DNA of 64,000 nucleotides. It comes from Cristatella mucedo. Taxonomy: Eukaryota; Bryozoa; Phylactolaemata; Cristatellidae. The position numbers and the translations under genes were made by a program. Each line of letters opens with the position of its first letter. The stretch's first letter is position 1. The notes beneath the pieces were generated by a model. It was not told the DNA's origin, ran no database searches, and saw nothing but the letters and a program-made list of their open reading frames with translations. Shown here piece by piece: positions 9,227 to 63,104 of this stretch. The DNA lies in NCBI GenBank assembly GCA_009760855.2, contig WPIO01000173.1, positions 221,501-285,500 on the forward strand. Reading direction: 5' to 3'.

Positions 9227-9343
9227 AGCAACTGGCCTGCCGAATAAAAGAGCTTGAAAAAGCGTTGAAGAAACAGGGAGGCGAGAAGGAGCAGCTGGAA
9301 AAGCATCTGGATGAAAAAGAGAAGCTTTTAGATCTACTACAAG
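9227..9343 (+). CDS. Gene 1 internal exon, coiled coil
   Basis: Internal exon of a putative TRIM-type gene. It is preceded by a pyrimidine-rich tract and AG (TATTTTTATCCCAAAG) and followed by a GTTAGC donor. Its frame encodes about 38 residues of strongly charged heptad-like sequence (RIKELEKALKKQGGEKEQLE, then KHLDEKEKLLDLLQ), a coiled coil. The exon is 117 bases long and leaves the codon after base 1, the same phase as the two downstream exons. An alternative acceptor at 9190 would add an IPDLYEYFYPKE segment in phase 0. No RING-B-box exon was seen between 1 and 9226, so the 5' part of the gene is either upstream of the window or unrecognised. Linkage to the later exons is inferred from phase and order. 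Confidence 0.55.
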
Positions 9344-9640
9344 GTTAGCTCACTGTTTGTGGCTTTTTTTAAGCATCCGATGGCTACTTGTGCTTGAGTT
9401 GTGTCTCGGCAGCTGACCGATTCCTCACATCGCTTGGTCAGTTGAAGTTGATTGTTGCACGAGTGCTCACGAACTCTACTTGCTATGATGCATCTATTTT
9501 TCAATGCTTCTTTTTTAGTGCTCGGAAAGAGCCTAGAGACAATTCAGTTCTCCTTAGTTGATATTTGTTGATGCCGCATTACTGTGACAACTATTTATTT
9601 TCTAGTTGGACTCCCTGCAGCTATTCCACCTTCACAGAGC
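9344..9640 (+). other. Intron sequence of gene 1
   Basis: AT-rich, with no feature seen before the LINE A insertion that follows. Confidence 0.3.
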
Positions 9641-9654
9641 AGCTTGAATTCTCG

Positions 9655-9952
9655 CGAGGAACCTAAAAACACACCTATTTAGGACAGCATTTAGCGGGTC
9701 TCTGTGATTCGTCCTTGATGTGCTTATGCGTGCTGACACTGTGCATGCTGACACTAACCACATTTGCATGCTGACCCTGTGCTTGTCACCCCTAACCATA
9801 TTATTCATTTCGTTTGTTTTTTTCAAGCATGATTTTACTTACCATTCAATTGCATTTCACTTTACAGCAAATGTAAAGCGCCTAGAGAGAGATTAAGTTC
9901 TCTGAGGGCGCTTTATCAAGTGAATTATTATTATTATTATTATTAACAAAGC
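9655..9952 (+). mobile_element. LINE A 3' end
   Basis: Starts in the coding region for NLKTHLFRTAFSG, then stop, 3' UTR, hairpin and an (ATT)n tail. Fairly well preserved. Confidence 0.85.
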
Positions 9953-10269
9953 ATCATTCAGTTTGACTAGCTTGCGGATTCGACGAATTATGGCAACCCA
10001 CCTAAATCCAATTTAATTAGGCTAAAGTCGTTCAAACATTGACGTCGCTGAGCTCAAATTCCGGGCTGATATTGTAGTAAGCGATTGATTCATAACAATC
10101 CACCCATATTCATGTTACTATGAGCACCAGCACTTCTGCAAATGACCTTTAACACCAGAATCCTGTACACAGCGGTTCACTTTAGCTTCCTTTAAATCCA
10201 CAGCAAAGCTGTTACACAAAGCTCCAAAAAGTTTAGACAATCTAAGTAAGGTTAATTTAAAATGTACTC
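9953..10269. other. Unassigned spacer before satellite
   Basis: No gene seen. Its last part may already belong to the degraded satellite that follows. Confidence 0.3.
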
Positions 10270-12370
10270 TGAGAATTTTGCCTGGTGGACTACAATGGCC
10301 ACGTCGCATGCAGCAATCCAACTCAATCCTCGGAAATTGCTGCAATCTCCTGCTGAGAGACCAGAAGTCGTGTGCTAGAATCTTCAACTACGATTGCACA
10401 CCGCTCTACTCTTCAATTATAGTGTACTCGCATAATTTCACTGTTACTTCCTTGTATATTCTGCAGCAATACATTGCAATTGACTGCAACGGCCCGGGCC
10501 AGTACGTCAATCCATCATAACCAGCCTCAAACGACCTGAATGCGTACACTTTAAGCTCTAATACAGATTGCGAGTTGCTTCAATGATTGGTAATTGTGCA
10601 ATCGTACAAGGTCACTGTAAGTTGCTCCATTATTTAGTTCTTGTTTAATCGCATCACTTTCTGTAAAAATTCCTTAAACCACTCGGCAGCAATGCAATGC
10701 GATTGACGGCAAGGGCCCGGACCAATACGGGGATTTACCACCAACCTGATGCAAAAAGTCCTGCCATCTGATCTGGCAGTGCTCCGATTGTGAATGGATA
10801 TTGGAATGTGCTCTGGTAAAAGTCAACTGCATCACTTTAAGCGAATGAGCTCGTACAATATCGAGCACTGCATGACAATCTACGCAATGGTCAGCTTGAA
10901 GCAGGAAATCGCTACAATACGTAGCGAACTAACCTCAATTTAGCTGCCCTTGTGCCGTTTGCCACTGTATTTCACATTAAATATGTTCTAAAAGCAAACC
11001 TTCGAAGTTTCTAGCCATTTTGCACGATAATTGCCAATAATTCACGGCAATAAACTGCAACGGCAGAGGCCTATACCAAAATCCATGGAAAATCGACGAG
11101 GAATTGGGTGCACCATGCTAGAATTCTCATTACACATAACATCTCACTGGTCGCGTTCTGCCTGCTGCGACCGTTTAATCTTTAGCAATTCATGGCAATT
11201 GAGGGGAATGACCCAGGAAAATAAGGAAATCCATTATGATCCATCACAAATCGCAGGAAAGTGACTGGGCCGATGTCAAGTTTTCCTCATGCACCACAGC
11301 GAACTGTGTTTAAAGTGCAATCGCACCTTTTTAACCGATGGCGTACATACAATCGCCAGCAATGACTAATAGTAATAACAATAATGCACTTGATAAAGCT
11401 CTCTCATTGAACTCAATCTCTGTCTAGGCGCTTTACATGGCAATCGAAAGCAATGGCAGGGCCCATATGCCAACTTTCGCCGAATTGATTATAAATGAAC
11501 AGCACGGAGCATCAGCTGTCCTTACATCAAACATTCCGCTGCCTATAGATTGAACTGTGACATTTTTAAAATGCTTTGCTCGTTAACTTTGAGCTGTGCC
11601 CGGCGATCCACAGGAAAGTTATAGTACTGTAAGAAATAGCACCCGTCTCTGAAAAATTCCCCAAAATCGGCTACTTAACGCTCCAATTTTGCACGTATAT
11701 TAAAAAGCACCCTTCAAAGTGCAACCACATAGTTTTATACTACTTTTGCTTCCAAAATCTCGGGCAATGAATGGAAATCTATGGCAATGGCTTGGCTTAA
11801 AGCAGCAAGCAATCAATAATAGTCAGTGGCAAACCAACCGCCTATTGGCCGTGCAAAGTTCTGATTGTCGTTGCAGGTAGTATTTCACAGAGTTCAAAAG
11901 TAAACGGTGGAGTGTGTAGGCTATGTTTGCCCATTCATTGTCAACTATGCGGGCAATTGATATCTTGGTCATGGCCAACACAGAAAATCGCAGAAAAATT
12001 GGCAAGAGTAGCTTTGGGGAACTTACAACTCTTCTTTCACGAAACAAGTCTAACTGGTGCTCTCACCTAATTTGCAGCCACTGTTCTCGTTCAATTGATG
12101 TGAATGTTCAGCAATGGCCAGAAATGGCCATGGGAAATTAGCTAATCCATAACGGTCCGTTACAAGTGGGCCAAAACTAGCTAAGAGAAGCTCTAGACTT
12201 CTCAGGCGTATTGCAGTTCACTGTATTAGGAGTGCAACAACATCCATTTGAAAATCTGAGAACATACGATCTGTGGCAATGCTCAGTAATCGACGGCCAT
12301 GGCCTGCCTTCTACCACTATCCATATATCCACAGTTTACAATTGTAGTTATCATACCACATAACGTTCAC
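10270..12370. repeat. Degenerate satellite, period about 170 bp
   Basis: A core close to GGCAATTGACGGCAATGGCC, followed by a purine-poor segment and an AATCCAT block, recurs near 10293, 10473, 10690, 10872, 11040, 11190, 11455, 11600, 11770, 11935, 12100 and 12285. After removing a 75-base LINE insert the spacing is about 150-215 bases. Second landmarks recur between cores, for example GTGCTAGAATCTTC near 10370 and ATGCTAGAATTCTC near 11116. The monomers are heavily diverged, so this is an old tandem array rather than an active satellite. No coding frame was seen. Confidence 0.6.
11368..11443 (-). mobile_element. Very short LINE A 3' tip
   Basis: Only the tail and 3' hairpin are present (GCACTTGATAAAGC and CTAGGCGCTTTACAT), inserted inside the degenerate satellite. 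An extreme 5' truncation. Confidence 0.8.
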
Positions 12371-12539
12371 TGTGCATGCACATACTGCCTCTTTTTCCGC
12401 TCAATCTTGGACAATTCTTGGTTAGCGATAGCATCGACAAATGTGCCTGTGATGCAGTGAGCTGTTCCAAAGACAACGCCAGGAACAAATATAAAATTGC
12501 CGTGACACTCTGCAAGTAAATGCTTTTGTGTTAAGGTCT
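12371..12539. other. Spacer, nothing recognised
   Basis: No motif recognised between the satellite and a LINE A fragment. Confidence 0.3.
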
Positions 12540-12925
12540 ACAGCCTTCTGGTAAAGCGAGGTTTCAGTGTCTTTGATAGGAACGGCAGAAGGGAGACTGG
12601 AAGGAAGTTGCAGAAGTTGTCTTGGTCTAGCTTGGCTTTTCTGAGTAGTTGTTTGACTACAACCTTCTGTGAGATATGCTGATACTTAACGTGAGGCTAA
12701 TAACGTAATAATATTGTCAGCTATGCATGTCAGCAGAAAATCAATACAATCGTAGAAACGGGTAAGTGGAGATAGGATCCAAAGGTCTAGTTGTCTTCTT
12801 TGATTGGAATATGAACTTCAGGACGACGTTACTAATGGCCACCTTGAATGTAATCACTAAGGTGCTGCAAGGAATTGAAGAAAAAACCAGGACCTGCTGT
12901 GCTAAGTTCATTACGAAACCGCCCT
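12540..12925 (-). mobile_element. LINE A fragment, pre-RT region
   Basis: The minus strand matches the segment upstream of the RT core (the LLKK...NYRPVSLLPFLSK-like region and the part before it); compare 14790-15100 and 20740-20890. Stops throughout. Confidence 0.5.
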
Positions 12926-13029
12926 CATTCGAATCCCCTTCAAGTTCGAGTTTCAACTTACTTTTTCAAATATAAACAGTTAGAACTAAGTTTACAAGTC
13001 GTCGTAGTAGTAGCAGTAATAGAAGTCCA

Positions 13030-13245
13030 TTTACTTTAAGCAACCTTAAGTAGCTTAAAGTTTGAGCTTGCTAGTCTGGAACTGCACGGATCAATTGGCC
13101 GTGCATGTGTAACATTCCGTCTCGAATTGTCTAACTCACTGCTTGCTGGTCTACTGGCTAGAAATTTATTGTACTTGCAATTGGTGCGTAACTTTGCAGC
13201 AAGGCTTCTCAGTCGTGGCTTCGCAGTTGCAAAATCATACGAATT
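13030..13245 (+). mobile_element. LINE A thumb-region fragment
   Basis: Matches the stretch coding TSRLDFCNSLLTGL...QLVQNSAARL in decayed form (TGTCTAACTCACTGCTTGCTGG is diagnostic). Confidence 0.6.
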
Positions 13246-13279
13246 CCCCGTAAGAGGAAGTGGCATAGTGCTTATGGTA

Positions 13280-13765: not shown

Positions 13766-13839
13766 TACTTTAAATATGCGGTTGTCATCAATACAAACAG
13801 TAAAAGAGTTGGAAGGATTCGGAGTGCTTGAGGCTACGA

Positions 13840-16509: not shown

Positions 16510-17450
16510 AGGTAGACCGTGGATTTTCAGGGCCAGGGCTCAAGTTGGCTTAGTCTGAGCTACAAACTCGTTGGGTATGTTAAGTAATGTCGTGTCATAG
16601 CAGTGTGCTAATGATGACATTTCAGGAAAGGATTGAACAGCATAGGTGAAGCAAATGTCTCTCATGGTCATCACCAATGTCAAGGTTATTGCGATTTTGA
16701 GAATCACATGTATTTTTAAATTAATTTGAGGGCCGACATTGCTGAGTGAATAAGGTTTGCATGTAGTTAGACGAGCAGACGTTGTTGGGGATAATAGGTA
16801 ATTAATAATTGGTTATAATAAGGTAGCCTGCAGTTTTCGGAGAAGATTTGGTCGAGTGAGTGACTCTTGATGTGAATAGGGCAATGCGAATGGGTACAAG
16901 AGCCAAGGAGTCAGCCAGGGTATGAAATTCGGTGCTAAAAGTTTCACATAAGTAATTAAAATGAACGTTAAAATTACACACAATGAGTAAGGATCAATTT
17001 CTTGCACGCAAAATAGAAGTGATATCGGAAAAATTTCTGACAAAGAGCGTTTGGTGGTTGGGTGTGGTAAACTGCAGCGACTATCAGTAGCTTGTTTTTG
17101 GGTGAACTCTAAACAATAAATTCGTAAGACTGCTTTGAAGGAACTCTAAAGGACTTGAAATTGGACAATGAGCGTTTTACAAAGCAATTCAACCTACAAC
17201 TTGTTTGACTGATTTAGAGGTGTGAAAGTAGGATAAGACCGTCAGGATTTTGTCGGCTATGATATGTTGGATTTTAGCAAAGTTATGGTCAAGGCGAGTA
17301 GGCCAACGCTTTTTTCATGAATAAAAGTTGCATATTATATGAGTTTATTGAACATTTAGAAAACATACCAAGGGCATCAAGGAGATTCTTAAAGTTGGTC
17401 GGTCGAAGTTACAGCATGAATGACGAGAAGTCTAATACAACTGTAAGGTG
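16510..17450 (-). mobile_element. LINE A endonuclease region, old
   Basis: The minus strand resembles 53700-54330 (for example the ACATAAGTAATTAAAATGAA block against the endonuclease GDLN...FDY region). Strongly decayed and assigned by local matches only. Confidence 0.4.
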
Positions 17451-17783
17451 TACGATCTTTTGATTTCCGTTTAAGTGCAATTCTCGCGGTTATACTTCTA
17501 TGGCTGTGTAGTCACAGATGAAAACAGTGCATATTTTCAAAGACATGGCAGCAAGATTGATCACCAGTCTTTAACAGTAACAGAATGCCCATTCAAAACT
17601 CGAGCCTGAGATAAACCTTACCCTTCCTAAACTCTTAATCCAAGTCCAACAATAACTGCGGATTCTTCGAGTGGTGTAGTGAGCATTCTTTATTTTGAAT
17701 CGATCATTCGTTTCATGATTTAGATCTTTGCTTTGGATCTTCATGTCGTCTATATATGGTGCTTAAACATTTTTTTCATCTAG
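17451..17783 (+). other. Intron of gene 1, no feature seen
   Basis: AT-rich. Ends in a strong polypyrimidine tract, TTTTTTCATCTAG, immediately before the exon. Confidence 0.4.
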
Positions 17784-17930
17784 GTTTCGCAGAACTGAAG
17801 TCAGAAGACACGAGCAATCAGGATGCCATTCAAAAGCCAGCAGCTGGTGTCGAGAAACGGCTGAAGTTATTGCAGGAGCTGCGAAAGAAGGTGCGAGATG
17901 AGGAAGGCAGGCTCGCCATTAAATTGCAAA
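17784..17930 (+). CDS. Gene 1 internal exon, paralogous coiled-coil module
   Basis: Internal exon of 147 bases with a clear acceptor (TTTTTTCATCTAG) and donor (AAA/GTATGTAC). Both borders are in phase 1, so the exon is symmetric. It encodes about 49 residues: a variable start (FAELKSEDTSNQD) and a helical basic-acidic block (EKRLKLLQELRKKVRDEEGR). The exon at 62964-63104 encodes the same module: NQD, ERRLQLLQELQKKLRHEEGR and the same phase. Conservation of the protein between two otherwise unlike loci is strong evidence that both are real exons. The module probably extends the coiled coil that would oligomerise a TRIM-like protein; that role is inferred from position after RING/B-box in gene 2. 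Confidence 0.75.
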
Positions 17931-18080
17931 GTATGTACAGGTGAATCCTTGGAGCGCACGTTTCATATTTTGTTTCTGGTCTCTAGAATTGGATTGAACT
18001 CTGCATTGATCTCGTCGATATTTCTACATGTGACGTCCGTAACAAACCCTTGCACTGTATGCACTTGAACTTAGCTATCC

Positions 18081-18265
18081 ACTGAAAAGAAAATTCCAGC
18101 TGATTAAACAGCCTCTTTTTGTATAGTGGCAGAAGAGCCTTTACGGCTATTACCACTGCTTGCAGTGGCGATAAAGAATTCCCCACTGCAGGAATCGAAC
18201 CCACGACCTCGGGACCAAAGTCGTGAAAGCAACCGCCTTACCCAGTGTGCAATCACGGTTCACCA
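18081..18265 (-). mobile_element. SINE-2 copy, best preserved
   Basis: On the minus strand: A-box-like CACTGGGTAAGGCGG, B-box GGTTCGATTCC preceded by GAGGTCGTG, then a hairpin-rich body (CTGCAAGCAGTGG) and a TTAATCAGCTGGAATTTTC end. Typical tRNA-derived SINE architecture; the 3' part is unlike LINE A. Lies in the intron of gene 1. Confidence 0.75.
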
Positions 18266-18509
18266 CAGGGCAATTTATTTGATTACTTCTTACTTACGGC
18301 CACTGTTCACATCTATGCTAAGTTCTGTCTAGAATATTTTAAACTTCCAGGATGGATTTATAGACGGGCTCTAGAAAAGGTACCCGAATCGCCATTGAGC
18401 TTCGCGGCTACTCATCAGACTAGAGAGTTGCTCAGAAAAATGCACCATAAGACGACTAAACCTCCATCACGGAGCAATAGAACTCATTGCTACACAATCC
18501 ATTACTTAA
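18266..18509. other. Unassigned spacer
   Basis: An open frame of 147 codons crosses it (18245-18688) but mixes spacer and SINE sequence, so it is not believed. Confidence 0.3.
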
Positions 18510-18690
18510 GATGCCCTGCTGTGGCTCAGGGCTTAGGGCGTTTGCCTTGCATGACTAAGGTCATGGTGAACGCATTCCCATTCGACGTCCGAGATCGTGA
18601 TCACGAACCCTTCGGCATATGTGTGAAGCATGACGAGAGATTTAGTACTCTTCCGGTTAAAGAGGTGTATTATATATTATCTTTTTAAAG
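18510..18690 (+). mobile_element. SINE-1-related copy, diverged
   Basis: Head GTGGCTCAGGGCTTAGGGCG resembles a tRNA A-box region. The tail GAAGCATGACGAGAGATTTA is a damaged version of the SINE-1 tail and is followed by ATTATATATTATC. Confidence 0.55.
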
Positions 18691-19078
18691 CTCATGAAAT
18701 ACAAAGTATCATGTGGAATACGTGATGCAAAGCCGGTCAAGTATGATGCTTACACATGAAGGAACGTACCATATCTAACTATTTGATCCGTGGTTATTAT
18801 CCTGCACTGATTCATGCTAATGTTTTACTCAAATCACTTGGGAGCCCAAAAGAAATTAAGACACAAATTCTGATAAGATGAGTAGGGCAGGCTATTCAAG
18901 GACTCAAATGGGAGCATATTAAAATACATTTTGGATTGCAGATTATTATGAGGTCAGAGAATGTATAGGACTTTTAGGGTTGACATCTCAGTTTTATTTT
19001 ACCCCTCACAGTTTATCGATGTGAAATAATTAAAGGCAGCAGGATTTAGTATTGGACTGAATTACTAGCTCTATTAAG
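18691..19078. other. No gene recognised
   Basis: AT-rich intronic sequence with no repeat signature I can name. Confidence 0.3.
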
Positions 19079-25257: not shown

Positions 25258-26177
25258 GGTCCATTGCAGCAGAGAAGCAGCCACTGGCCTTCAGCCCTAC
25301 CTCGGAAGGCTTCCGTACGATTGTCCAATGCTGGGAGATGTCGGTGACATCAGAAGGTCATCTGCTACTGGCTGCCTTGCGGCACGGCCTGAAGGAGTGC
25401 AGTGAGAGTGGCACTGAGCTGAGCAGCTGGAGACCTGCAAGGCAGAGCGACAGAGGTGACGATGCAGTCATTTCAGTGCAGTCGCTGGACGACGGCCGAG
25501 CAGTTGTAGGCTTGTGGCACTCACGGCTCGTAGTGCTTCTCAGACAGAGCTATGTCGCTGCAGGCGTGTGGCTTGAGGAAAGACTGGTGGCTGTGCTGCA
25601 GTCACCTCCCAGAAAGCTGTCTGTGCTTGGCGACCGGCTTGCTGTGGCTGAAGGAAGTTTGACTAAGGACAAAGGCTTGATGCCCGGCCCAGGGCTGCAG
25701 CACCTGCAGCTGAGCACAGGGCTGCTGCTGTACAGCAGGATCTACGAGTATAACATCTGGAGTGTGGCTCTCACTGCTGCTGCTGTGGTAACAACAAGCT
25801 GCAGCCGTGTGAAGCTGAAAGGTACCCGCGAGCTGTACGTCGTGGACAGCCACAGCTACCGAGGTGGCCGATGCTTGAGGCACGAGGTTAGCTGTGACGA
25901 GGAAGTGTGGGGCATCTTTGCTGCAGGTGACAATCTGTATGTGGCTATAGCAGGGCTTCAGAAAGACATCGGCTGCAATTGCGTGAGTGCTCTCAGTGCA
26001 AAGACTGGACAGCTGCTTCAGCAAGTCATTTCTTACAGCAGTCAAGGACCACGCCTCAATGCTTACCTGTCAGTGAGCCAAGGACTGAAGACCGTTATAG
26101 CAGTGCTCAGCAAAGTGGAGGAGGAAAACTACTGGGGCAAGGTGACCGTGTACTCCGCATTACCAGGCTGCAGCTGA
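25258..26177 (+). CDS. Gene 1 terminal exon, propeller-like C-terminal domain
   Basis: Terminal exon: acceptor after TGTGTTAACAAACCCAG, open for about 306 residues, TGA at 26175-26177. It enters in phase 1, matching the donor at 17930. The protein is a series of short hydrophobic strands separated by turns (for example VISVQSLDDGRAVVGLW, RKLSVLGDRLAVAEG, VWGIFAAGDNLYVAIAG, LNAYLSVSQGLKTVIAVL), with strand-turn units every 40-50 residues. This resembles the beta-propellers that follow RING-B-box-coiled-coil modules in many invertebrate TRIM-like proteins. No NHL motif is clear, so the fold is an inference from pattern. GC content is visibly higher than in the surrounding introns and codons are mostly GC-ending, which supports coding. 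A GA microsatellite begins at the stop codon. On its own it would lack a start, so it cannot be a complete gene. Confidence 0.75.
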
Positions 26178-26213
26178 GAGAGAGAGCTAGCCAGCGAGAG
26201 AGAGAGAGCTAGC

Positions 26214-26263
<50 letters not shown>

Positions 26264-33463: not shown

Positions 33464-34425
33464 AGGTTTGCAGCATCATTTGTATGGCACTTTCCGTATA
33501 AGAGCGCCCACTAACCGTAGCTATGTAGCAGACGAAGGCTGACCACCGAATGGACCGACTTGAGTAGCATACACATTTCTTGCTGTGGCTTGGCCATGGA
33601 GAGCGGACCGCCACCAGACATTTGGTGACATCTAGCAAGGAGAGGAGTGGAGACCAATGCGATCGCACCTACGTGAGCGACCGGCTCCGACCAAGCTATG
33701 ACCAAACTTGCCACTTCAGCGGGCTAGCTAGTGCCTCGGGGAGAGACGACGTTGTGGATTTTTTCTTCGAAAGTTGCAGGCAGAAGGTTTTTTCAAGTGC
33801 GCCATTTTAAGGACCCAATGGACACGTCGCGATGTTACTTTAACGTTGAACGATTTTGCATCGAACTTGAGCATGAGCGAGCTCTGGGGCTACGTTAGTT
33901 GAGAGGGCAGATTCGAGGTCGGATGTTTCAGCTGTAGACAGGCCTCTAGCACGCGCCAGCCAGCTGCTCAATTTAATGGGCGGCGCAGAAGAACTCATCG
34001 GCAGAAAACACCCTTGCCCATCGTTAGAAAGCCAGTGGGAGCAGCAGCAAGGTGAGACGTGAAGAGCTTAAAGCGAGCTGGGATGGTATAGGACTCTGAA
34101 ATAGGCTGTGGTATTTCGGCCTGTAGCCTCGGTTTGCTATCCAAAGTATGGAAGCGGCTGATTGATGTCGGCCAGTCTGTTAACCTCGGGCGCAACCGTG
34201 TACACAAAGAATGGTCTGGAGAGTTTTCGGCATTGAAGCTAGACTGAGTCGCTCATCCGATAGTCAAATGACTGTAGTAATTAATTACCGGAACGGCCCA
34301 TGGTGCCGGGCCAATTACCACGAAGCTCTCGTCCCACCGTCCCGGATAGTATTTTTAGAGTAGGGTGACGCTCGCTCAGCACCAACGCCTTCGTGTCGCA
34401 TACACTGGGATATATCATTAAAAAC
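33464..34425. other. Unassigned stretch
   Basis: Higher GC than neighbours, with only short overlapping frames and no domain recognised. Confidence 0.3.
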
Positions 34426-37309: not shown

Positions 37310-38685
37310 ATGTCACTACCCGAAGCACTTGTCTCAATCTTGCTTCGCGACGAACATGATGGAATCTATCGCTTCAATTTCTGGGGGAAAATAAAAGCGT
37401 ACATTACGTGAACCGGCTTACTTTGAAACGCAGGTTCCCGGAACTAGCTGAAGGAAACATAGTATGAGCCAGTTTTGTGCACAAAAGCACTCACGTAAAA
37501 GACACACCTTGAAAAATTAGAAATAAGAAAAATAGAAATTAGAATGAGAGAGAAATCGGAAAGAATTAGAAGGAAAAATTTAAGAAAAATAGAAAGAAAA
37601 GAGCCAAACACCTCAGCCCAGCTAGAGCTTTTCAAAGACATTGCAGATTAAACGCTTGCTAGATATTTTTGTACCAATGACTCAGATTGGCATAGGACCC
37701 ACAAAGTCCTACTTAAAATCCTTTTTCTAGTCATTATCTCTTTCTTGGCGCGGCTGTCCGCGATTCAATCTTCAGTCAGCTTATCGCAAATGCTGCGTAG
37801 CATGTGCGGCGACGGATGTCAGTAAGGAAAAGTAAATCCTAGCTCATTAAACAGCCTCTTTTTATTGCGACAGAAGAGACTTTACGGCTATCACCACCGC
37901 TTCAAGTGGCGATAAATATTCGCCCAAGGCAGGAATTGAACCCACCACCTCGGGACCGAGGTCATGAAAGCAAACACTTTACCTAGTGTGCCATCAAGGC
38001 TCACCAAATGTCTCAATGCTAGTGCTTGGCGCCAGCGAGTTTTATATTTATTGTCAGTGAGATTTATTCTGACCTTCGGCTTCGCTGGCTAAATTACTGC
38101 TTTAATTTATGGGGAGAATAAATGAGTACACTACGTGAACGGGCTTACTTGTAACCACAGATTCTCGGAACTAGCTCAAGGAAAACTACTGCGCCCCACA
38201 TTCGTACACAAACGCACACGTAAACGACACACCTAGAAAAATTATAAAGAATTAAAAATTGGAAAACTTGAAATCAGAGTTAGAAAGCAAAATAAAAAGA
38301 AAGCAAAGAACATATAAATTGGAAAACTTGAAATAAGAATTAGAAAGAAAAATAGAAAAAGAAAGAAAAGAGCAAACACCTCTGCACAGCCCCGAGCTTT
38401 CCAAAGAAATTGGAGATTGAAAATTTGCTAGATATTTCTATAGCAATGATTATCATTGACATAGCACCCACAAAGACCCACTTAAAATCCTCTTTCTAGT
38501 CCTTATTCATTCCCTCTATCGCGGCTTTCTGAATTCGATCTGCCGTCAGCTTATCGCACCTGCTGTGTAGCGCCTGCAGCGACGCAATGCTACTGGTTGG
38601 CGCCGACGAGTTTCATTTTCAGTGTCAGCGAGACTTGTTTTCACCTTCGGCTTCGCTGGCGCAATTACTGCCTCAGGTGCCCTGT
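37310..38685. repeat. Tandem duplication, unit about 0.57 kb
   Basis: Two-plus units in direct tandem. A CTTCGGCTTCGCTGGC landmark lies at 38074 and 38646, with a degraded counterpart near 37340. Other paired blocks are TAGAAAGAAAAGAGC-type A-rich segments (37590 and 38360), ACTTAAAATCCT (37710 and 38480) and TCAGCTTATCGCA (37777 and 38546). The first unit is lengthened by a SINE-2 insertion. Confidence 0.75.
37821..38007 (-). mobile_element. SINE-2 copy with target duplication
   Basis: Matches 18081-18265 on the minus strand, including a B-box-like GGTTCAATTCC and GACCTCGGTCCCGAGG-type region. ATGTC on both sides (37816-37820 and 38008-38012), and comparison with the unoccupied site in the next tandem unit confirms the borders. 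Confidence 0.8.
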
Positions 38686-38940: not shown

Positions 38941-39182
38941 CTCTCATAGGTATTATCTCAAAAGTTAGCAAGCACAAACTTTGCGTCTGATAAGGATGCA
39001 TTCATTCGTCGGGTGGCTGTATTATCCAATCGTTCAGGCTATAGATACCAGAGGATCCGGGTATTTAGGTCAGTACTGTGGCTGTTAATGTTTTCAGCTT
39101 GAAAAGCTGACCGCAAGTGCTCGCAGCAGGTGTCTGAGACTCCAAAACGCATATCCTGCAAGAGCAAGCGAATAGCAAGTCA

Positions 39183-40442
39183 CACCTTGCTAGTAAGTTC
39201 CAGTCTGGCTTTAGAGCTAATCACTCCACAGAGTCAGCATTGCTTCGGGTATACAACGACCTACTTAGGAATGCAGACATGGTTAGAGTGTCTCTTCTTG
39301 TTTTGCTCGATCTTTCGGCAGCTTTTGATACCATCGATCACAAAGTACTTCTAGAGCGCCTCTCATCTCGCCTGGGCATCACTGGCACTGCTCTGCAGTG
39401 GTTCAGGTCCTATCTCAGTGGGAGACTCCAGAGTGTTGACGTGAATGGACAAAGATCATCTGAAGTACCTCTAAAATATGGAGTACCTCAGGGCTCTGTG
39501 CTAGGTCCGGTCCTTTTCACCGTTTATACTCTCCCTCTCGCTGATGTGATTGCCAAGCACAATCTAGGCTTTCACTTCTATGCGGATGACACTCAGTTGT
39601 ACCTTTGCTTTGATCCCTCCCAGCCTTCGAGCACCTCAAATTCTCTCAACTCACTTGCTGCGTGCATTGATGACATCCGATCATGGATGGCAGCAAATTT
39701 TCTAAAACTTAACGATGATGAAACTAACTTACTAGTTATGGGCAAACCTAGTGTTATTCAGAAATTGGAAAGGCTGACTTTCAAAATTGGCTCTGCCAGC
39801 ATATCTCCAGTTGCATCAGCTCGAAATCTAGGTGTCATATTCCAAAGCGACCTCTCGTTAGACGACCACATCAGCTCCACAGTCAAATCAGCCTATTTTC
39901 AGCTTCGTAACATTGCTAAAATTAGGGCTTGTTTAGATAAGGATACCACGTCCAAGTTGGTCCATGCATTCGTGACATCTCGTCTCGACTTCTGCAACTC
40001 ACTGCTTACTGGCCTACGAGCATGCGCGATCAGGCGATTGCAGCTGGTGCAAAACTCTGCAGCTAGGCTTGTCTGTCGTGAGCGTCGCCGTTGCCACATT
40101 ACTCCACGTCTCGCCGACCTGCACTGGTTACCAGTCAAGCAACGGATTGACTTCAAGGTTTTGTCGCTCACTTTTAGGTCTCTTCATTCTATGGCTCCAG
40201 CCTATCTTTCAGATATACTACCCCATCAGGCAAAGCATCGTACCACTCGCTTTTCGGAATCCAACAGTCTAGAAATACCTCGTACAAACCTTAAATCCTT
40301 TGGAGACCGTGCATTTAGCTCGTATGCTCCCACAGCCTGGAACTCCCTCCCGACCTGCATCAGAACATCCCCTGACCTGACCACATTTAAAAGAAACTTA
40401 AAAACATACCTATTTAGGACAGCATTTAGTGGGTCCTTGTGA
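39183..40442 (+). CDS. LINE A ORF2 fragment, reverse transcriptase
   Basis: RNA-dependent DNA polymerase that would copy the element RNA at a nicked target. The frame is open from the insertion border to TGA at 40440-40442. Counting from Leu at 39240 as residue 1: motif A LLDLSAAFDTIDH (Asp24, Asp30), motif B GVPQGSVLGP (81-90), catalytic box FYADDTQLY (Tyr114-Asp117), then NFLKLNDDETNLLVMGK, LGVIFQSDLSLDDH and a thumb/C-terminal region ending FSGSL. The endonuclease and N-terminal RT parts are missing because of 5' truncation, and no native ATG begins the frame. The piece cannot be autonomous, but the lack of stops over 400 codons shows it inserted recently. Confidence 0.9.
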   Translation, partial: HLASKFQSGFRANHSTESALLRVYNDLLRNADMVRVSLLVLLDLSAAFDTIDHKVLLERLSSRLGITGTALQWFRSYLSGRLQSVDVNGQRSSEVPLKYGVPQGSVLGPVLFTVYTLPLADVIAKHNLGFHFYADDTQLYLCFDPSQPSSTSNSLNSLAACIDDIRSWMAANFLKLNDDETNLLVMGKPSVIQKLERLTFKIGSASISPVASARNLGVIFQSDLSLDDHISSTVKSAYFQLRNIAKIRACLDKDTTSKLVHAFVTSRLDFCNSLLTGLRACAIRRLQLVQNSAARLVCRERRRCHITPRLADLHWLPVKQRIDFKVLSLTFRSLHSMAPAYLSDILPHQAKHRTTRFSESNSLEIPRTNLKSFGDRAFSSYAPTAWNSLPTCIRTSPDLTTFKRNLKTYLFRTAFSGSL

Positions 40443-45236: not shown

Positions 45237-46223
45237 CTAAATGAAGCTTTTGAAATTGAGGCAGCTGTCGAACATGACACCCAGATTACGAGCACGTGGT
45301 GAAGGTCGCACAATAGCAACACCTATTAGAACTGCAAAGCCTTTTAATCCAGCCACACGCTTAGGGTGTCCTATGAGAAGCAGTTCGGTTTTATGGTCAT
45401 TTAATTTCAGGAAGTTTTCCGACATCCAGGATCGAATATCGGTAAGGCAAGCATTCAGTTTCTCAGTTACTGCAGCAGATTCCGACGGTTTAAATGACAA
45501 ATACAACTGAGTATCGTCAGCATAGAAGTAGTATTCTATTCCATGGGCCTTAATCACTTTTCCTAGAGGTTGCGTATAAATGAAGAACAGCAAGGGACCA
45601 AGTACAGACCCTTGAGGGACTCCACAGGTGACCCTTCTCATGTCTGAGACCTGACCCCCACACGACACGGATTGAACACGATCAGACAAGTATGATTTAA
45701 ACCACGCCAGTGCTTTGTCTGCCAGACCGATCGTTGTTCTCAATCTTTCAAGCAGAACTTCGTGATCAATGGTGTCGAAGGCAGCAGGCAGATCTAGTAG
45801 AGCTAAGGCAGTGACATTCCCGTTGTCATTGCCACGTAGAATGTCATTGTTAACACGGAGGAGAGCAGTTTCAGTTGAGTGCTGCCTCTTGAAACCTGAT
45901 TGAAATGTTTCTGACATTCCATTATTTTCAATATGTTCAACTTGCTGCTTAGCAACCATTTTTTCAAGAATCTTTGATAAGAACGAGAGAAGGGAAACTT
46001 GACGATAGTTTGCTAGGACCTCTGTGTCTAATCCAGGCTTTTTAAGAATAGGTCTAACGATTGCCGATTTGAAGGACTTGGGGACAACCCCTTTTCCCAA
46101 AGAAGCATTAAAAATCTTGGTTATGGCAGGGCTAAGTTGGTCTGCAAGTGAAGACCACAGAGATGAAGGTATAGGGTCTTCAGGAGACGAGCTCTTTTTG
46201 CTAGACCTTATTAAGGCAGCCAC
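45237..46223 (-). pseudogene. LINE B reverse transcriptase domain
   Basis: 328-residue frame with pre-RT ANYRQVSLLSFLSKILEKMV, FQSGFKRQHSTETALLRV, motif A LLDLPAAFDTIDH, motif B GVPQGSVLGPLLF, catalytic YADDTQLY and ENFLKLNDHKTELLLIGHPK. All catalytic Asp residues are present. The frame begins after a frameshift near 46215, where the upstream frame continues in another register, and ends in a stop at 45237 inside the LNFKSFI region where related copies are also interrupted. Confidence 0.9.
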
Positions 46224-46735
46224 ATCACTGGCAGAAACTTCGGAGAACCTTTTAAAAAGGTCACAGGTTGAGGAACGGCGATTGCTTTGGTCGGAGGGGG
46301 CTTAATAGAGGCACGAATGTGCACAATTTTTTCAGTAAAGAAGGCTGAAAACTTTTCGGCTGAGCCCTTAATATCTGGGGAGTCAGACCTGACAGCATTG
46401 GTCAGTAAATTTTTTACTGTCTTATAAATCTGTTTAGTGTCCGACTGGCAGGAATTCAGTTTTCTAATGAAAAAAGAAGCCCTAGCTTTTTTAAGCTTGT
46501 GGGTGTAAACTCGAAGGAAGTCTTTAAAATTGACTGGGTCTACCTCAGACCCCGATTTCTTGAAACGACGTTCCAGCCTGTGCTTAACACGGCGCATCTT
46601 AAGGAGTTTTTTTGTAAATTGAAAGCAATCTCGACGACTTTGAACACGGATGGAGCGAACGGGAGCATGCTTGTCAAGAGCGCTCCTGAGTGTCATGTTC
46701 ATCGCATCAGTGAGGGTATCGAGGCTGCCGGTCAA
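46211..46735 (-). pseudogene. LINE B linker between endonuclease and RT
   Basis: 174-residue helical, basic frame (KKLLKMRRVKHRLERRFKKS; KKARASFFIRKLNSCQSDTK; AEKFSAFFTEKI), typical of the connector ahead of the RT in CR1/L2 LINEs. It overlaps the RT frame by a few codons in a different register, which marks the frameshift. Confidence 0.85.
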
Positions 46736-47662
46736 GTCTCAATGCAGATCAAGAAGGCCTGCATCACAAACAGATTTAAAAAAGTTTTCTAAGTCAATGC
46801 TTTGCAAGGTACGTCGTTTGGCAAATTCGACATTACCCTGCACGTACGAGGGAGCAGGAACAGTAAACGAGACCGAACAATGATCTTAAAGGGTCACTGG
46901 GCACACCACAAAGTCAGTGGGGTGGACATCCTTAGTGATCACGAGATCTAGAATGTGCCCACCGACGTGGGTGCAATGATTAACGTGTTGGGCCAAACCA
47001 AGATTCTCCAGACAGTCAAGAAATGAGCGGACCTAGCTGTAGCTAGGGTTGTCAACGTGAATATTGAAGTCTCCTACAATCAGTAGCGGCCTGTCACACA
47101 CAAATATTTTAGCGAGGAACTCTGAAAACTCCTCTATAAACAAGTTTAGACAGCCAGAAGGAGGCCGGTACATCACAACAGTGAGAGGCATTGTCTTTGA
47201 TGAAGACCTCATAGCAACCGATTCAAACGATGACCCATGCGAGAAACTGCACATTTTATAGCCAAACGATTCGCAAACAACAATTGCAACCCAGCCACCA
47301 ACCTTATCAGAACGCATGAACTGATAGAATGAGATCCCGGGTGGGGTGGTCTCGGAAATACAGCTACTGGAACACGGCGTCATCCAGGTTTCGGTAAGCA
47401 GAAATGCATCTAGCTTCTCCTGGACCACCTGATCGCGGATAAGTAACCCCTTGGTTTTTAGCGAGCGGACAGGCGATTCGCTCATATTTCGCAGCTTTGC
47501 GGTTGCATATGGCGGCTGGGCGGGCACGAGTGCGGTCATCGAAGGGGACCTTGTCGGCCGCGCCTGCCATGAGGACTGCGCCGCCTTACATCGGACTAAA
47601 CTCCACCTTAATAAGTAAATAATAATAATTGTAATAGTAAGTATAATTGATAATAATGACAC
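46736..47662 (-). pseudogene. LINE B apurinic-type endonuclease domain, broken
   Basis: Endonuclease/exonuclease/phosphatase-fold domain that would nick the target. The main frame (47033-47662) has LDAFLLTETWM (catalytic Glu), a GGWVAIVV segment, VVMYRPPSGC and IVGDFNIHVDN (Asp and Asn of the active site). A TAG at 47033 interrupts it. In the same register further on is the SDH-type motif, where a TAA (46886-46888 on the + strand) directly precedes Asp-His. The N-terminal run of isoleucines in the frame comes from AT-rich flanking sequence, not from the element. Confidence 0.85.
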
Positions 47663-47825
47663 CTTTATTGTAGCTCCACAGAGAACTCAAGCACTTCCAT
47701 AATCCGCCATACTACATAGGCAAATACGGTGCATAATATGCAAGACATTGTTTGTGCTATTTCCATCACGATGCTGTTTTAGTGCAGAATGAGGAGTGCT
47801 GCTTTGTTATCTTTGGCGCATGGCT
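47591..47825. other. AT-rich spacer
   Basis: Begins with an AAT-rich run that may be a remnant LINE A tail. Nothing else recognised. Confidence 0.3.
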
Positions 47826-53445: not shown

Positions 53446-53699
53446 TGCTATTATTAACTGCTTAGCTAGTCGGAGTCGGCATCACCACAGTCGAGTCCTC
53501 TGCTTTCAGAGGACTCAGGGGGCCATGAACATGCTACACCGGGAACGCGGAATACACATGGACGACAAATCTTGATCTTTTATGGGCTTTCTTAAGTGTG
53601 TGCGTAGTAGAAATAACCAGTTATTTGCCTGTATTACACTATAATACATCTGGGCTACGCCTCACAACAAGCTAGTTCCATGGTGCAAACCTATTAGAC

Positions 53700-54570
53700 A
53701 TGTTCGTAAGTGTTGTGTTGTAGCAATCTGCCAATTATGTGAGGTCGGGTTAAGGCGTGAGCAGCAAGGACGAAGAGGACATTTTACTTAGAAAACAATT
53801 AAAATTGGTGAGGTTTCGCGATTCTATGTGATTTTGGATGGAGAGAAGGGCACAGGCTGTTGATCGAACGAGATCGACTGGTGATCCAAAGAACAGGATT
53901 AATTATTAATAGAAACTGAAAGTATGCAGCTGCTAAATAATATCTGATCGAGAATGTTTTCCTTGCTGTGAGTGAAGTCATGCACTTGAGCCGCGAGAGA
54001 AAAAGAGTCAGTTAGCGAACGAAACTCAGCACATAAGGTGTGAGTAAAGTAATCAAAATTACCGTTCAAATCACCCATTTCGAAGAAAGATTTTTTTTGC
54101 ATACAGAATGGAAACGAGATAGATAAAATATTAGATAAGGGAGGACTTTGACCCCGGTTATTGAAAGACTACTGCAACCATTTTCGACTATCGCCACTCC
54201 TTCATTTTTAACACGGCGTATGGAACATCGAGAAACCCATCGAGTGGCGTCCGTTATAGTCGGACTCTCAGAATAGGCCACGCAGGTGTCTTTGAAAGCG
54301 AGCAAGTCTAGATCGCCGCCAATAACCATCTCAGGTTTGTAAGGGATTTTTTACACACTAGGAAAAAATTCAAAAACCAAGCACTAAGTTGGGCTTTGGG
54401 GTATTAGTAAGTCTAACGACCTCCAATTTTGAGGGATTCAAGTCAGTTCTTGAGGGATATCGGGAAGAGTGGCGTGTGACAATGGTTTTAATACTGATTA
54501 AATAAGCGAAGCCAGAGACTGCCTGACCGGCTCTGCCTGGGTGCTTGTTTAGAAAAAAACAATCCATAAA
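53700..54570 (-). mobile_element. LINE A endonuclease region
   Basis: The minus-strand frame at 53899-54102 shows FFEMGDLNGNFDYFTHTLCA, the GDxN active-site segment of an AP-type endonuclease, followed by FRSLTDSFSLAAQVHDFTHS. The frames at 54066-54329 and 54370-54576 cover the preceding part. This is the only place where the LINE A endonuclease is clearly readable. Interrupted by stops. Confidence 0.65.
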
Positions 54571-56104: not shown

Positions 56105-57131
56105 ATGGAACAAGATCCCGTTCGTCACTGCTGCATTTGCCAAGAATTGCTCGACGATCCGATCTTGCTTATTTGTCTACACAATTGCTGCAAGAGCTGC
56201 ATGTTAAATAAAATCGCCCAATTAGATCAGAAGTGGATCACGTGCCCAGAATGTTTGACCACCGAGGATGTCGCTGTGGCTCAACCGAATCTATTCATAG
56301 CAACAAAGCCACTTTCTTCTGATGTGAAGTGCTATCCATGCGAGCTGAATGAACTTGATGAAACGGCTGAGTTCTACTGTGAAAACTGTCCTAAAACCTT
56401 TTGTGCTAGTTGCTCCAGAGATCACAAAGTGCACACCTTGGACCACGTCACCGAACCTATAGATCTGCATAATGCAAATCGAAGCTTTGCTGCTCAATGT
56501 CCAGAGCACAATAGGCAGCTGGAGTTTATGTGCTTAACTTGTACGAGGCTAAGGTGTGCCTACTGCATCAGGGCTGTGTGCCTCACTGAGAAGCACGATG
56601 TCAACTATGCAACTTGTGAAGCTGTTAGCAATAAGATGGCCCTCAAAAAACGAGACATATTTGAATATTTAAATCAAATAGAGGGCCTAACTGCTTCGCT
56701 CAACTCAGATAGTTGGAATGCGAAAGTAAGTAAAGCACGTGAAGCATGCAGGGAAACCCTCAAGAAGAACAAAAAAGCTGCTCTTGATGACCTGGATACA
56801 GTCTTTTCAGAAGCTGAGGAAGAGCTTGAAGATCTCAGCGACAAGCTTGAGGCTGAGGTTTTCTCCGAAGTAGAAGAAATTGATCGCATGAAAAAGGCCG
56901 CTAGATCGGCAATGGCTTACGGTCGGCTTGTGCTGAATTCAAACAATTATAAATGGTTGTTAGATCAGTCTGACCGGATTGCATCATGTCTTGGAAGGCA
57001 TAGCGAACGGCTCTTGGCGTCATCTAAGGTTCCTGCAATCACAGACCGCCTTGTCATACCTGAAAGCTATTTAGACGCCACCAGGAAAATGATGCTAAAG
57101 ACATTAATTGGTGCACCAGAGTTGCATTCCG
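56105..57131 (+). CDS. Gene 2: TRIM-type RING/B-box/coiled-coil protein, first coding exon
   Basis: Predicted RING E3 ubiquitin ligase of the tripartite-motif type. The start MEQDPVRHCC is chosen because the RING follows at once. RING residues 9-50: C9, C12, C24, H26, C29, C32, C47, C50, a complete C3HC4 set. B-box 1 residues 76-110: C76, C79, C92, C95, C100, C103, H107, H110. B-box 2 residues 132-164: C132, H135, C143, C146, C151, C154, then C159 and H164. From about 175 to 290 lies acidic-basic helical coiled coil (AALDDLDTVFSEAEEELEDL). The exon ends at TCC G/GTAAGT (57131), a consensus donor in phase 1, compatible with the exon at 62964. Reading on to the stop at 57185-57187 adds residues with no similarity and is probably intron. 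An acceptor at 56073 implies a separate upstream exon. The C-terminal sensor domain is outside the window; by analogy with gene 1 it may be propeller-like. Confidence 0.9.
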
Positions 57132-57199
57132 GTAAGTTATGCTCTGAAAGCCCACAACAGATTTTACCCTATCAAAAGAAAAGATAGTTTGTGGCATAT

Positions 57200-59210: not shown

Positions 59211-59604
59211 ATTACTACGCGTGATGAGTAAAGGCACCCGGCGAAATCCCTTTTGTTCACAGTAAGTCCTCCCAGACTGCTTCTCGCCGTGCTCTTTTTT
59301 CCGACCGTCTGCAAATAGTTTGCAAGAGGTTTGCATGCTGCTACATGTTTAAGCTTGCTATCACTATTTTTGCTTTCTACATCAAGTTAATTCTACTGAT
59401 GTGTAACCTCCTGAGCTCTAAACCTGAAGCGCTCGTGACGCACCTAGATTTACTCCTCTTAAGGGTCTACATAAATGAGGAATATTTACACAATTTTCAT
59501 TTTTCGATATTAAAAGCAAGTATTACTTACCGTTTAAAGTTTTGGATCGCTGCTCGAGCTTCACACTATAGTCTGCCTGCTTTCAAAGTCTGCCTGCTTT
59601 CAGC
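59211..59604. other. Intron spacer of gene 2
   Basis: An 88-codon frame at 59345-59611 has no recognisable motif. A short tandem (GTCTGCCTGCTTTC) occurs near 59571-59600. Confidence 0.3.
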
Positions 59605-60032
59605 GTTGTGAACAATGAGGCTTGCTTAAATAAGGACACTCAAGCAAAGTCAGTGCATGCATTGACGAAACGTTATCCCTTCCTGAGTTACTTTGCTTGC
59701 AGTTCTTCCAGTTTGTCCATCTCGAAGCCTGAAGTCAATTTTATCTTGCTGGCCTGCATTGGCTGCCGTAAATACCAGGCTGCCATAATTTGCCACCTCT
59801 GTCTGCAACACAGTGCGTTTCAGTCAAAGGATATATTGCTCTTGTAATAAAAAAGCTTCATTTCTATAGAAATTGACGAGCAGGCATACCCATCTTGATA
59901 CGGTTTCAGAATATGAATTATATAATTGACACTAAGCAGAGCGCTACTGCTTTGCAGTGAATTTAACGTGCTTACAAATAGATTGAGCTCTCTGAGGGTG
60001 CTATATCAAATTTATTATTGTAATTATTTTTG
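59605..60032 (+). mobile_element. LINE A, deletion-rich old copy
   Basis: AGGCTTGCTTAAATAAGGAC matches the RACLDKDTTSK region. The thumb part is scrambled, and the end keeps the hairpin (TTGAGCTCTCTGAGGGTGCT) and an ATT tail. Confidence 0.6.
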
Positions 60033-60124
60033 TTGAAATACAGTTTATCGTCTCGCATGTAGAGATGGTTAGCAACTGTTATAGACAATCGAAACATCTG
60101 AGAGTAGTACTGCGTCCTTTTTAG

Positions 60125-60540
60125 TTATCGAAGAATCAGTCTACTTCAAGGTGTTCGCATGCTCCTCAGTGGCCAATACCGGTACAGAAAGATCGATAAG
60201 TTAGTTCTCCACATCGTCAATTGAGCCCACGGTACTTTGTCAGCTACTATTTTCATGCTCTCGTATAAAATCATGAGCTCTGACATATTGAACCATATGT
60301 AGAGATTGGAGATGTTATCGTGTGGAATGTCAACTTCAGCTTTCACTGGTTCCACATGGGTCATATCGTCCTATCGTATACCTTCTTTATAAGACGTTGC
60401 TAGTTTCACTCGGTTGCCTTCGTCGGCGTACTTCGCAACAGCTTTTTTGGCACACTCAGCTATATTCTCAGCAGACGGTCATTTAGCTTCTACATTGAAG
60501 CTCGAGATATTATAGACATAGTGACACATAATAAGACCAT
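60125..60540 (-). pseudogene. Broken minus-strand coding relic, family unknown
   Basis: One minus-strand frame reads about 138 codons of protein-like sequence with only two in-frame stops: NIAECAKKAVAKYADEGNRV, KLATSYKEGI, stop, DDMTHVEPVKAEVDIPHDNI, SNLYIWFNMSELMILYESMK, then PWAQLTMWRTNLSIF to a stop at about 60146. It fits neither LINE A nor LINE B and shows no obvious splice sites. It could be a processed pseudogene or part of another transposon's protein. I do not recognise the family. Confidence 0.35.
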
Positions 60541-60821
60541 GGCCAGATATCTGCGTACAGTCCTCATAAATTGTCCGGCACTTTTTTTATAAACTTTTAC
60601 AAATTAACGGTTTTGGCTACTACTGCCGGACCGAATGGTGTTACTCATGGCTTGATTGACAAGCTCAGCTCCAATGCGTGAACAGCTGCAAAAGGTATCG
60701 GAGCAAGACAGTGACAAAGAGCATTCATTTATGTTGTAACAAATTCCATGTCCCTAGCATTGTGACACTTTTTTTGCCGAAAACGAGGTGGGAACGCTCT
60801 TACATGTGATTTACCACTACT
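60541..60821. other. Intron spacer of gene 2
   Basis: Could continue the preceding relic upstream, but with more stops. Nothing else recognised. Confidence 0.3.
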
Positions 60822-61428
60822 CTTAGCGTCGCAGTTGCCACATTACTCCACTTCTCGCCGACCTGCACTGGTTACCAGTCAAGCAACGGATTGACTTCAA
60901 GGTTTTGACGCTCACTTTTAGGTCTCTTCATTCTATGGCTCCAGCCTATCTTTCAGATATACTACCCCATCAGGCAAAGCATCGTACCACTCACTTTTCG
61001 GAATCCAACAGTCTAGAAATACCTCGTACAAACCTTAAATCCTTTGGAGACCGTGCATTTAGCTCGTATGCTCCCACAGCCTGGAACTCCCTCCCGACCT
61101 GCATCAGAACATCCCCTGACCTGACCACATTTAAAAGAAACTTAAAAACACATACCTGTTTAGGACAGCGTTTAGTGGGTCCTTGTGATTCGTCCTCGAT
61201 GTGCTTATGCGTGCTGACACTGTTCATGCTGCCACTAACCACATTTGGATGCTGACCCGGTGCACGTAACCCCTAACCATGTTATTCATTTTGTTTGTTT
61301 TTCAAGCATGATTTTACTTACTATTCTATTGCGTATCACTTTGCAGCAAATGTAAAGCGCCTAGAAAGAGATTAAGTTCTCTGAGGGCGCTTTATCAAGT
61401 GCAATATTATTATTATTATTATTACTCT
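60822..61428 (+). mobile_element. LINE A 3' part, young copy
   Basis: Almost identical by eye to 40078-40673, from the RRCHITPRLADLHWLP region to the hairpin and an (ATT)n tail. A few changes near the stop (a 2-base insertion in the LKTHT region) break the C-terminus. Confidence 0.9.
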
Positions 61429-61600
61429 TTAACGCCCCAGAACGCCTATGAGTTTAGCACAACCCCAGGCTTTCAGCAAAAGAACCGATTATTAAATTAT
61501 TCAGGCTTTTGTGAATTCTATATTGACGATAGATAGTTATTTTATTTAAGCATAAACATTTCTTGGAAATTCCAATCCAGCAACCACAAATTGAATGGTA
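61429..61600. other. Intron spacer of gene 2
   Basis: No feature recognised. Confidence 0.3.
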
Positions 61601-61835
61601 ATTTGCATGCTGACCCTGTGCATGTCACCCCTAACCATATTATTCATTTCGGTTATTTTTTTCAAGCATGATTTTACTTACCAATCAATGGCATTTCACT
61701 TTACAGCAAATGTAAAGCGCCTAGAGAGAGATTTAGTTCTCTGAGGGCGCTTTATCAAGTGAATTATTATTATTATTATTATTAATACTCTTTCTACAGC
61801 ACATGTAAAGTGACAAGAAAGAGATTAAGTTTCAT
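61601..61835 (+). mobile_element. LINE A 3' end plus a second short tip
   Basis: 3' UTR, perfect hairpin and (ATT)n tail to about 61790, close to the copy at 9655-9952. A tiny further piece (ACATGTAAAGTGACAAGAAA) follows. Confidence 0.8.
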
Positions 61836-62099
61836 GACAGAAGTCTGAGTATTTTTTCGACTCTTCTTTGATTTTAGGTGTCTTCGATGTCGACCTTTTT
61901 AGGAAAAAATATATGGGTGGGCAGGTCTAGGCCTAACAATTCCTCGCATTCTCTAGCACTATGAATGTAGACTGGCAGTACAATCTTTCACAATATTAGA
62001 AAGTCACATTTGTCGTTCAAATGAAACTGACACTGCTGAGAAAACTAAATTGCTAAACTCTCTAGGAGGTATGCTAAAATTCAATTTGATTGTTACTGA

Positions 62100-62442
62100 C
62101 TGTTGGCGACAGAAGCTTTAGTTCTGCTGGTCCTAGACTGTGGAGATCGCTTCCATAATTCTTATGCAATCACAACTGCTCTCCTACTGCCGACTGTGGC
62201 TCATCTTTTTCAGCGGTCCTGAACTGCTACTTCTATGCTCCTCGCTACCTCAACTGCTCTCCTGACTCTGCTATCTGTCCCACATTCTCTATATTGCGTA
62301 AGATGAAGTCTGTTGGCTACTGAATGCCTACCGGAAGCCGCTTAGGCTGTGAGTGAGCTATATAAAACTCTCCTGTGTAACACCCACACGGTCTGTATGA
62401 CTTTGTGTAGTTACAGACGGAGATACATTACATTACATTATT
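62100..62442 (+). mobile_element. LINE B 3' end
   Basis: GACAGAAGCTTTAGTTCTGC, CGGTCCTGAACTGCTACTTC and GGAGATACATTACATTACAT tail. A stretch near 62165-62190 is rearranged. Confidence 0.85.
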
Positions 62443-62963
62443 TGCGGTTAAAGCAGATAGGCCCAAGCTGGTAAAGATACTGAGCACGCTACTTACACGA
62501 ACCATACTCACTGCGGCAGTCGGTAATATTAAGTATAGCAGAGGGTAACCTACAAAATCCTCAGCATACGTGTAGCCAGAATATTTTTTTTTTATTCAAT
62601 CATGTCCCATTGGCTTTGAAAGAAGTCTAACATAGTTTAGCTATGAGATTTTCTGATTTCAGTGGAAGTTCAATTCCATGATTTAGTTTCCACTGACCCC
62701 AATATGCATACCACAACTTTGTTTAGTTCCGAATATGTGGCAGTACTGCGTAGCTGCAGTCTGTAACCGCACCAGACTGTCCAGTCATTTTGAAAACCAG
62801 AATTGAACCTTACCTGACCTATTCTCGCAATGGCAGAGCAAAGGCAACTAGAGATGGTACTTTCTTTTATCGTTCTGATTATCCGTTTCATGATTGTTGC
62901 CTGAGTTGCTGCTGATTTTGCTATTGTCCCTGATTTGCATCTAAACAGTTTTTTTGGGTTTAG
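62443..62963 (+). other. Intron of gene 2, 3' end
   Basis: No repeat recognised. Ends in CAGTTTTTTTGGGTTTAG, a strong acceptor. Confidence 0.4.
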
Positions 62964-63104
62964 CTAAACTGACGCCAGAATGCGACGGCAATCAGGATGT
63001 CACACATATTCAGCTGACTGGTTACGAGAGACGACTGCAATTACTGCAAGAGCTACAAAAGAAGCTGCGACATGAGGAAGGAAGGATTAATGTCGAGATT
63101 CAAA
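62964..63104 (+). CDS. Gene 2 internal exon, paralogous coiled-coil module
   Basis: 141-base symmetric phase-1 exon with acceptor GGGTTTAG and donor CAAA/GTATTT. It encodes AKLTPECDGNQD followed by ERRLQLLQELQKKLRHEEGR and NVEIQ. It is homologous to the 17784-17930 exon of gene 1: same NQD start of conservation, same LQLLQEL..KK.R.EEGR block, same final Gln and phase, and two codons shorter. It joins in frame to the phase-1 donor at 57131 of the RING/B-box exon. It probably lengthens the coiled coil before a C-terminal domain that lies past base 64000. Confidence 0.75.

Follow-up and report, generated by a model that had tools for sequence, protein, structure and literature searches.

The window analysed here, a stretch of 64,000 bases from contig WPIO01000173.1 of the bryozoan Cristatella mucedo (43% guanine plus cytosine, zero unknown bases), probably carries two TRIM-like E3 ubiquitin-ligase genes that lie head to tail and stem from an old duplication. 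We assign this reading a probability of roughly 0.6. The upstream gene is termed locus A and the downstream gene locus B. We favor two such genes because an exon is homologous between the loci and so are the introns on both sides of it, because locus B shows RING and B-box matches as well as matches to TRIM chains of the Protein Data Bank (PDB), and because of the common strand, the uniform phase 1 of the exon boundaries, the heptad patterns and the constraint in codons 19–46 of the shared exon. What is demonstrated is a duplicated block and a TRIM-like exon adjoining one of its copies; the remainder we infer from order, strand and phase. Most likely, TRIM-like ligase genes of an invertebrate have expanded here in tandem, as is ordinary for gene families. 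The seemingly large introns and the RING/B-box coding sequence mark the DNA as eukaryotic and most likely animal. An earlier sequence-only reading had proposed two tandem TRIM-like paralogues, which is likely but half shown: the duplicated phase-1 exon, the same strand and the tandem order hold, whereas no RING was found in the window for the upstream locus.

The shared exon is represented by positions 17784–17930 at locus A (147 base pairs (bp)) and by positions 62964–63104 at locus B (141 bp), both on the plus strand. That the two encode the same module with the same splice phases had been noticed before, and coordinates, frame and phase 1 could be confirmed. In both copies the same frame is open between AG and GT, and both ends are in phase 1, with two codon bases at the start and one at the end; the first copy has an alternative acceptor at 17793, which is in phase 1 like that at 17784. 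The encoded module comprises about 46 residues, 22 of which are identical between the copies. The pair was recovered by tblastn with an E-value of 3.9e-11, and the score of the protein alignment (107) was reached by none of 2000 shuffles, the best of which scored 50. No further convincing copy of either exon was found in the window by tblastn (next best E 0.80), and with all five exon products as queries against the window, only self-matches and the shared pair appeared below E 0.5. A heptad pattern is present in the second half of the module (P 0.043 in the first copy and 0.0195 in exon 62964). All eight exon boundaries examined are in phase 1, a uniformity that partly reflects the use of phase in choosing the boundaries.

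The two copies differ at 17, 12 and 16 of the 46 first, second and third codon positions. The nonsynonymous (dN) and synonymous (dS) divergences are 0.375 and 0.64 over the whole exon, and 0.26 and 0.86 in codons 19–46. When unconstrained copies of the first exon were simulated, 85% acquired a stop codon, and neither real copy has one. From these patterns we read the shared exon as real, with a conserved helical half and a first half that appears to be drifting fast.

Homology extends from the exon into both flanking introns. A firm collinear block of about 650 bp relates 17417–18077 to 62617–63262 in the same orientation. In a tiling of the downstream region, four of 55 tiles, located within 62617–63262, matched 17417–18077 with scores of 360–600 compared with a shuffled maximum of 249, and the gapped alignment of the block scored 1069, the best of 100 shuffles reaching 533.5. 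Identity in this alignment is 72.5% in the 5′ intron (284 positions), 73.4% in the 3′ intron (169 positions) and 81.8% in the exon (137 positions, with 20 gap columns); the ungapped codon alignment of the exon is 67% identical. The related intron sequence just past the donors, which had been pointed out in the sequence-only reading, is real (47 bp at 78.7% identity directly 3′ of the donors) and belongs to a longer collinear block than was claimed.

The full extent of the block, about 1.3 kilobases (kb), is probable only (17275–18730 and 62458–63765, plus strand). The outer 5′ piece (17275–17553 and 62458–62745) is identical at 175 of 250 positions, which one of 200 dinucleotide shuffles reached, and the outer 3′ piece (18267–18730 and 63279–63765) at 288 of 412 positions, reached by one of 200 and none of 200 shuffles in two framings. 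We go no further than this because looser gap scoring failed to confirm the larger extent, as the shuffles were not exceeded (205.5 against a shuffled mean of 211 on the 5′ side, 399 against 380 on the 3′ side), and because the outer tiles, scoring 233 and 246, lie at the shuffled maximum. Between the firm and the outer 3′ part of the locus A block lies a SINE-like repeat (short interspersed nuclear element; 18084–18265), which resembles 37827–38006 with 82.4% identity over 182 positions; the name is our reading of the sequence and not the result of a tool. These 182 bp are missing from the locus B alignment, where the stretch ending at 63262 runs on to 63279, as expected of a repeat that arrived after the duplication if the 1.3-kb extent is right.

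In the aligned parts the introns have diverged by about 0.33–0.34 substitutions per site, a low estimate, and because of this divergence we regard the duplication as old. Since the introns on both sides were duplicated together with the exon, the data point to an old segmental or gene duplication and not to the transfer of a lone exon. The modular shuffling of exons between copies that had been suggested is unsupported and unneeded to explain the pair.

The TRIM character of the pair is derived from an exon of locus B that runs from an ATG at 56105 to 57131 on the plus strand. It contains a RING of the C3HC4 type, with its cysteines and histidine at residues 9–50, two putative B-boxes and a region predicted to be helical, and a strong donor (CCG/GTAAGT, score 4.57) closes it in phase 1. 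The RING segment scanned alone exceeded the cut-offs of two models, PF13445 (E 1.1e-5, 25.7 bits, cut-off 25.2) and PF00097 (E 9.3e-5, 22.7 bits, cut-off 21), in agreement with the earlier assignment of the RING/B-box half to one locus. In the Pfam scan of the whole exon the best B-box (E 8.1e-5) and the RING (E 2.5e-4) stayed below their cut-offs, PF13445 included. The top three PDB relatives in a phmmer search were chains of TRIM3 (E 6.4e-5), TRIM5 and TRIM2, with E-values up to 4.9e-4. By its C3HC4 residues and the two segment matches, locus B has the N-terminal RING finger of the TRIM proteins, also named RBCC after their RING, B-boxes and coiled coil. The helical region is helical in a single-sequence AlphaFold2 model whose mean predicted local distance difference test (pLDDT) value of 34.9 renders it not usable.

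We propose that both genes consist of a RING/B-box/coiled-coil exon followed by one or more short coiled-coil exons and an exon for a C-terminal domain, and that the window shows the front of the locus B gene and the back of the locus A gene; since the duplication, much of the introns has been rewritten by repeats. For locus A, a putative terminal exon (25258–26177, plus strand) and a weak candidate exon (9227–9343, plus strand) can be added. The latter is in phase 1 at both ends and heptad-rich (heptad power P 0.003); its exon score of 5.9 lies within the range of the minus-strand control. In TRIM proteins the RING recruits the E2 enzyme, dimerisation depends on the B-boxes and the coiled coil, and the choice of substrate on the C-terminal domain. 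By analogy with TRIM proteins in general, the predicted proteins would recruit an E2 through the RING, dimerise through B-boxes and coiled coil and pick their substrate with the C-terminal domain.

Several observations weigh against two complete ligase genes. Gene structures and ligase activity are predictions from the genomic sequence. Both B-boxes (PF00643, E 9.3e-5 with 23.0 bits and E 9.1e-4 with 19.8 bits) are under the cut-off of 24.1 bits, and within the RING exon the helical region has no significant heptad power (P 0.119). No relative of the RING exon was confirmed in viral, bacterial/archaeal and phage collections, a result that says little about animals. The donor of the second shared exon (AAA/GTATTT) is weak, lacking the G at +5 and scoring −1.57. 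In codons 1–18 of the shared exon, dN (0.60) exceeds dS (0.38), and constraint over the whole exon is weak, with 22 identical residues compared with 18.8 expected for unconstrained copies (P 0.11). In addition, partner exons are missing in the window: tblastn with the locus B exon recovered no RING/B-box exon for the upstream locus, and tblastn recovered no C-terminal exon for the downstream locus. A counterpart of 9227–9343 was likewise not found between 57131 and 62964, by tblastn and by comparison of four unique gaps with shuffles; the repeat-covered parts of this interval were searched by tblastn only. The RING exon of the upstream gene could lie upstream of the window, and we do not file locus A as TRIM; a C-terminal exon of the downstream gene would likewise fall outside the window.

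The missing partners could also mean that the duplication was confined to the block around the shared exon, which one gene would have received from the other, in which case the two genes would not be full paralogues and the upstream one may lack a RING. Such a partial segmental duplication would account for the absence from the window of a second RING exon, a second C-terminal exon and a second exon like 9227–9343, as well as for the finding that homology beyond the block is limited to repeats. However, at locus B repeats flank the block on both sides (62098–62445 and 63770–63999) and, with the tests of the outer block ending at them, later insertions may account for its limits; introns of this divergence would also be hard to align further out. 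We consider a partial duplication unlikely.

Likewise unlikely is an early end of the downstream gene. Its frame stays open beyond 57131 until a stop at 57187, which would yield a protein of 360 residues; the strong phase-1 donor at 57131 argues against such an end. The gene could otherwise end in exon 62964, since the frames of both shared exons, when read past their donors, run into a stop after four codons (SMYR-stop in the first and SIYD-stop in the second copy), which makes a terminal-exon reading possible. Decay of the second copy is possible in view of its weak donor (−1.57, without a G at +5), and the coding score of this copy is 2.0 compared with 8.1 for the first; yet both copies have kept their frames open, which few of the simulated copies did. 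On balance we find an early end improbable.

The shared block might finally be an unrecognised repeat with an open frame by chance, considering that 47% of the window resembles another part of itself (E 1e-6 or better) and that the amino-acid test shows weak constraint. An exon scan bears on this question, a weak guide, as its training set consisted of two exons (647 codons) and its splice weights were set from general knowledge. On the plus strand it returned 10 candidates with scores of at least 5.8, five of them within the training exons, and on the minus strand seven. Exon 17784–17930 (11.4) was the best non-training candidate of the plus strand, and 62964–63104 was missed owing to the donor cut-off. 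Two minus-strand control scores exceed that of 17784–17930, namely 21.1 in a tandem array at 4.9–5.8 kb and 12.9 antisense to the C-terminal exon. Against a repeat stand the rank of the first copy on the plus strand and the presence of just two copies in 64 kb, on the same strand; we regard this explanation as very improbable.

The putative terminal exon of locus A begins with a phase-1 acceptor, encodes 305 residues of an unclassified domain and ends with a TGA at 26175–26177. Zero families matched it in Pfam up to E 5 and in NCBIfam up to E 1. Among PDB chains no TRIM or NHL chain appeared up to E 10, and the only hits were two porin chains at E 0.08; a signature of NHL repeats was found neither in the Pfam nor in the PDB search. 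In viral and bacterial/archaeal collections no relative was confirmed, which says little about animals. The single-sequence AlphaFold2 model (mean pLDDT 34.9) is not usable, and Foldseek returned 535 matches with it, none at E 0.001 or better. Many of the best 50 of these 535 are presumably beta-propellers, with template modelling (TM) scores of about 0.2, which we treated as no evidence. Tests for internal repeats gave mixed results: the prefix-suffix self-alignment was reached by eight of 200 shuffles, autocorrelation yielded P 0.28 and 0.35, and six segments delimited by eye outperformed shuffles (7/300) yet did no better than cuts placed at random in this protein (247/500). A six-bladed beta-propeller, as in TRIM-NHL proteins, was considered and is unproven, given the quality of the model and the outcome of the repeat tests. 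The suggestion that the C-terminal domain may be a novel sensor is unsupported, as is a part in immune sensing; the exon has no match in the libraries searched. A GA-rich microsatellite (26176–26262) starts within the stop codon of this exon.

Among known systems, the pair is closest to Subfamily C of the TRIM (RBCC) ligases, which, according to PMC3503706, comprises TRIM2, TRIM3, TRIM32, TRIM45, TRIM56 and TRIM71. Locus B resembles it in its RING, two B-boxes, helical region and, presumably, a separate C-terminal domain, the best PDB chain being TRIM3. It differs in that the scores are weak and that neither an NHL nor a filamin match was reported for the C-terminal exon; membership of Subfamily C would be tentative. 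With the class 1-1 module exons that PMC8001218 describes in modular proteins of metazoans, the shared exon has in common the phase-1 introns on both sides; it differs in that the flanking introns were duplicated with it, so that a transfer between unrelated genes is not demonstrated. The most used modules are mainly beta according to the same paper, whereas the shared module is probably helical. Among the papers listed by searches of the open-licence text of PubMed Central (PMC), none dealt with a TRIM pair of this kind in an early animal. Rapid tandem expansion is on record for TRIM ligases of animals, and a link with the response to external attack is put forward as possible in PMC3503706 (Discussion). 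Because such expansion is already known from this source, the interest of the pair is modest, and what merits further attention is the C-terminal exon. A pair with a duplicated intron-exon block that can still be aligned shows how TRIM copies diverge, and if the C-terminal exon encoded a new domain, a substrate-binding fold would be added to the TRIM family. We speculate that the genes could represent a lineage-specific animal TRIM subfamily with a RING/B-box exon, skippable phase-1 coiled-coil exons whose number varies by copy and a C-terminal domain outside Pfam, although we think this unlikely.

Mobile elements are abundant in the window. Reverse transcriptases of the type found in long interspersed nuclear elements (LINEs) were matched at 39138–40439 (RVT_1, E 2.9e-22) and on the minus strand at 45237–46301 (E 5.3e-33), and a LINE-type endonuclease (Exo_endo_phos, E 0.0014, under its cut-off) at 47033–47686 on the minus strand. 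Positions 45237–47686 of the minus strand make up a long LINE copy in which parts of both enzymes are present. LINE-related fragments are numerous across the window, several of them with ATT-rich tails. A collinear match between 16527–17234 and 53649–54347 had suggested that locus A once possessed a RING exon and lost it by deletion. This idea was set aside; the match is probably an old LINE remnant, because 16961–17047 matches the LINE endonuclease stretch 47057–47143 (tblastx E 9e-5) and 16530–16711 matches 3031–3215. ARAGORN found no transfer RNA in the window, and zero Rfam families matched it at gathering thresholds. Between both loci, a candidate exon at 33899–34051 is in phase 1 at both ends, has a strong donor and matches no Pfam family. 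At the left edge, an open frame of 119 residues on the minus strand (2–358) runs off the window; Pfam yielded nothing for it up to E 1. The tandem array at 4901–5822 measures 922 bp and has periods of 30, 60 and 75 bp; several of its frames are open, including a plus-strand frame of 377 residues made of (FTVP)-like repeats.

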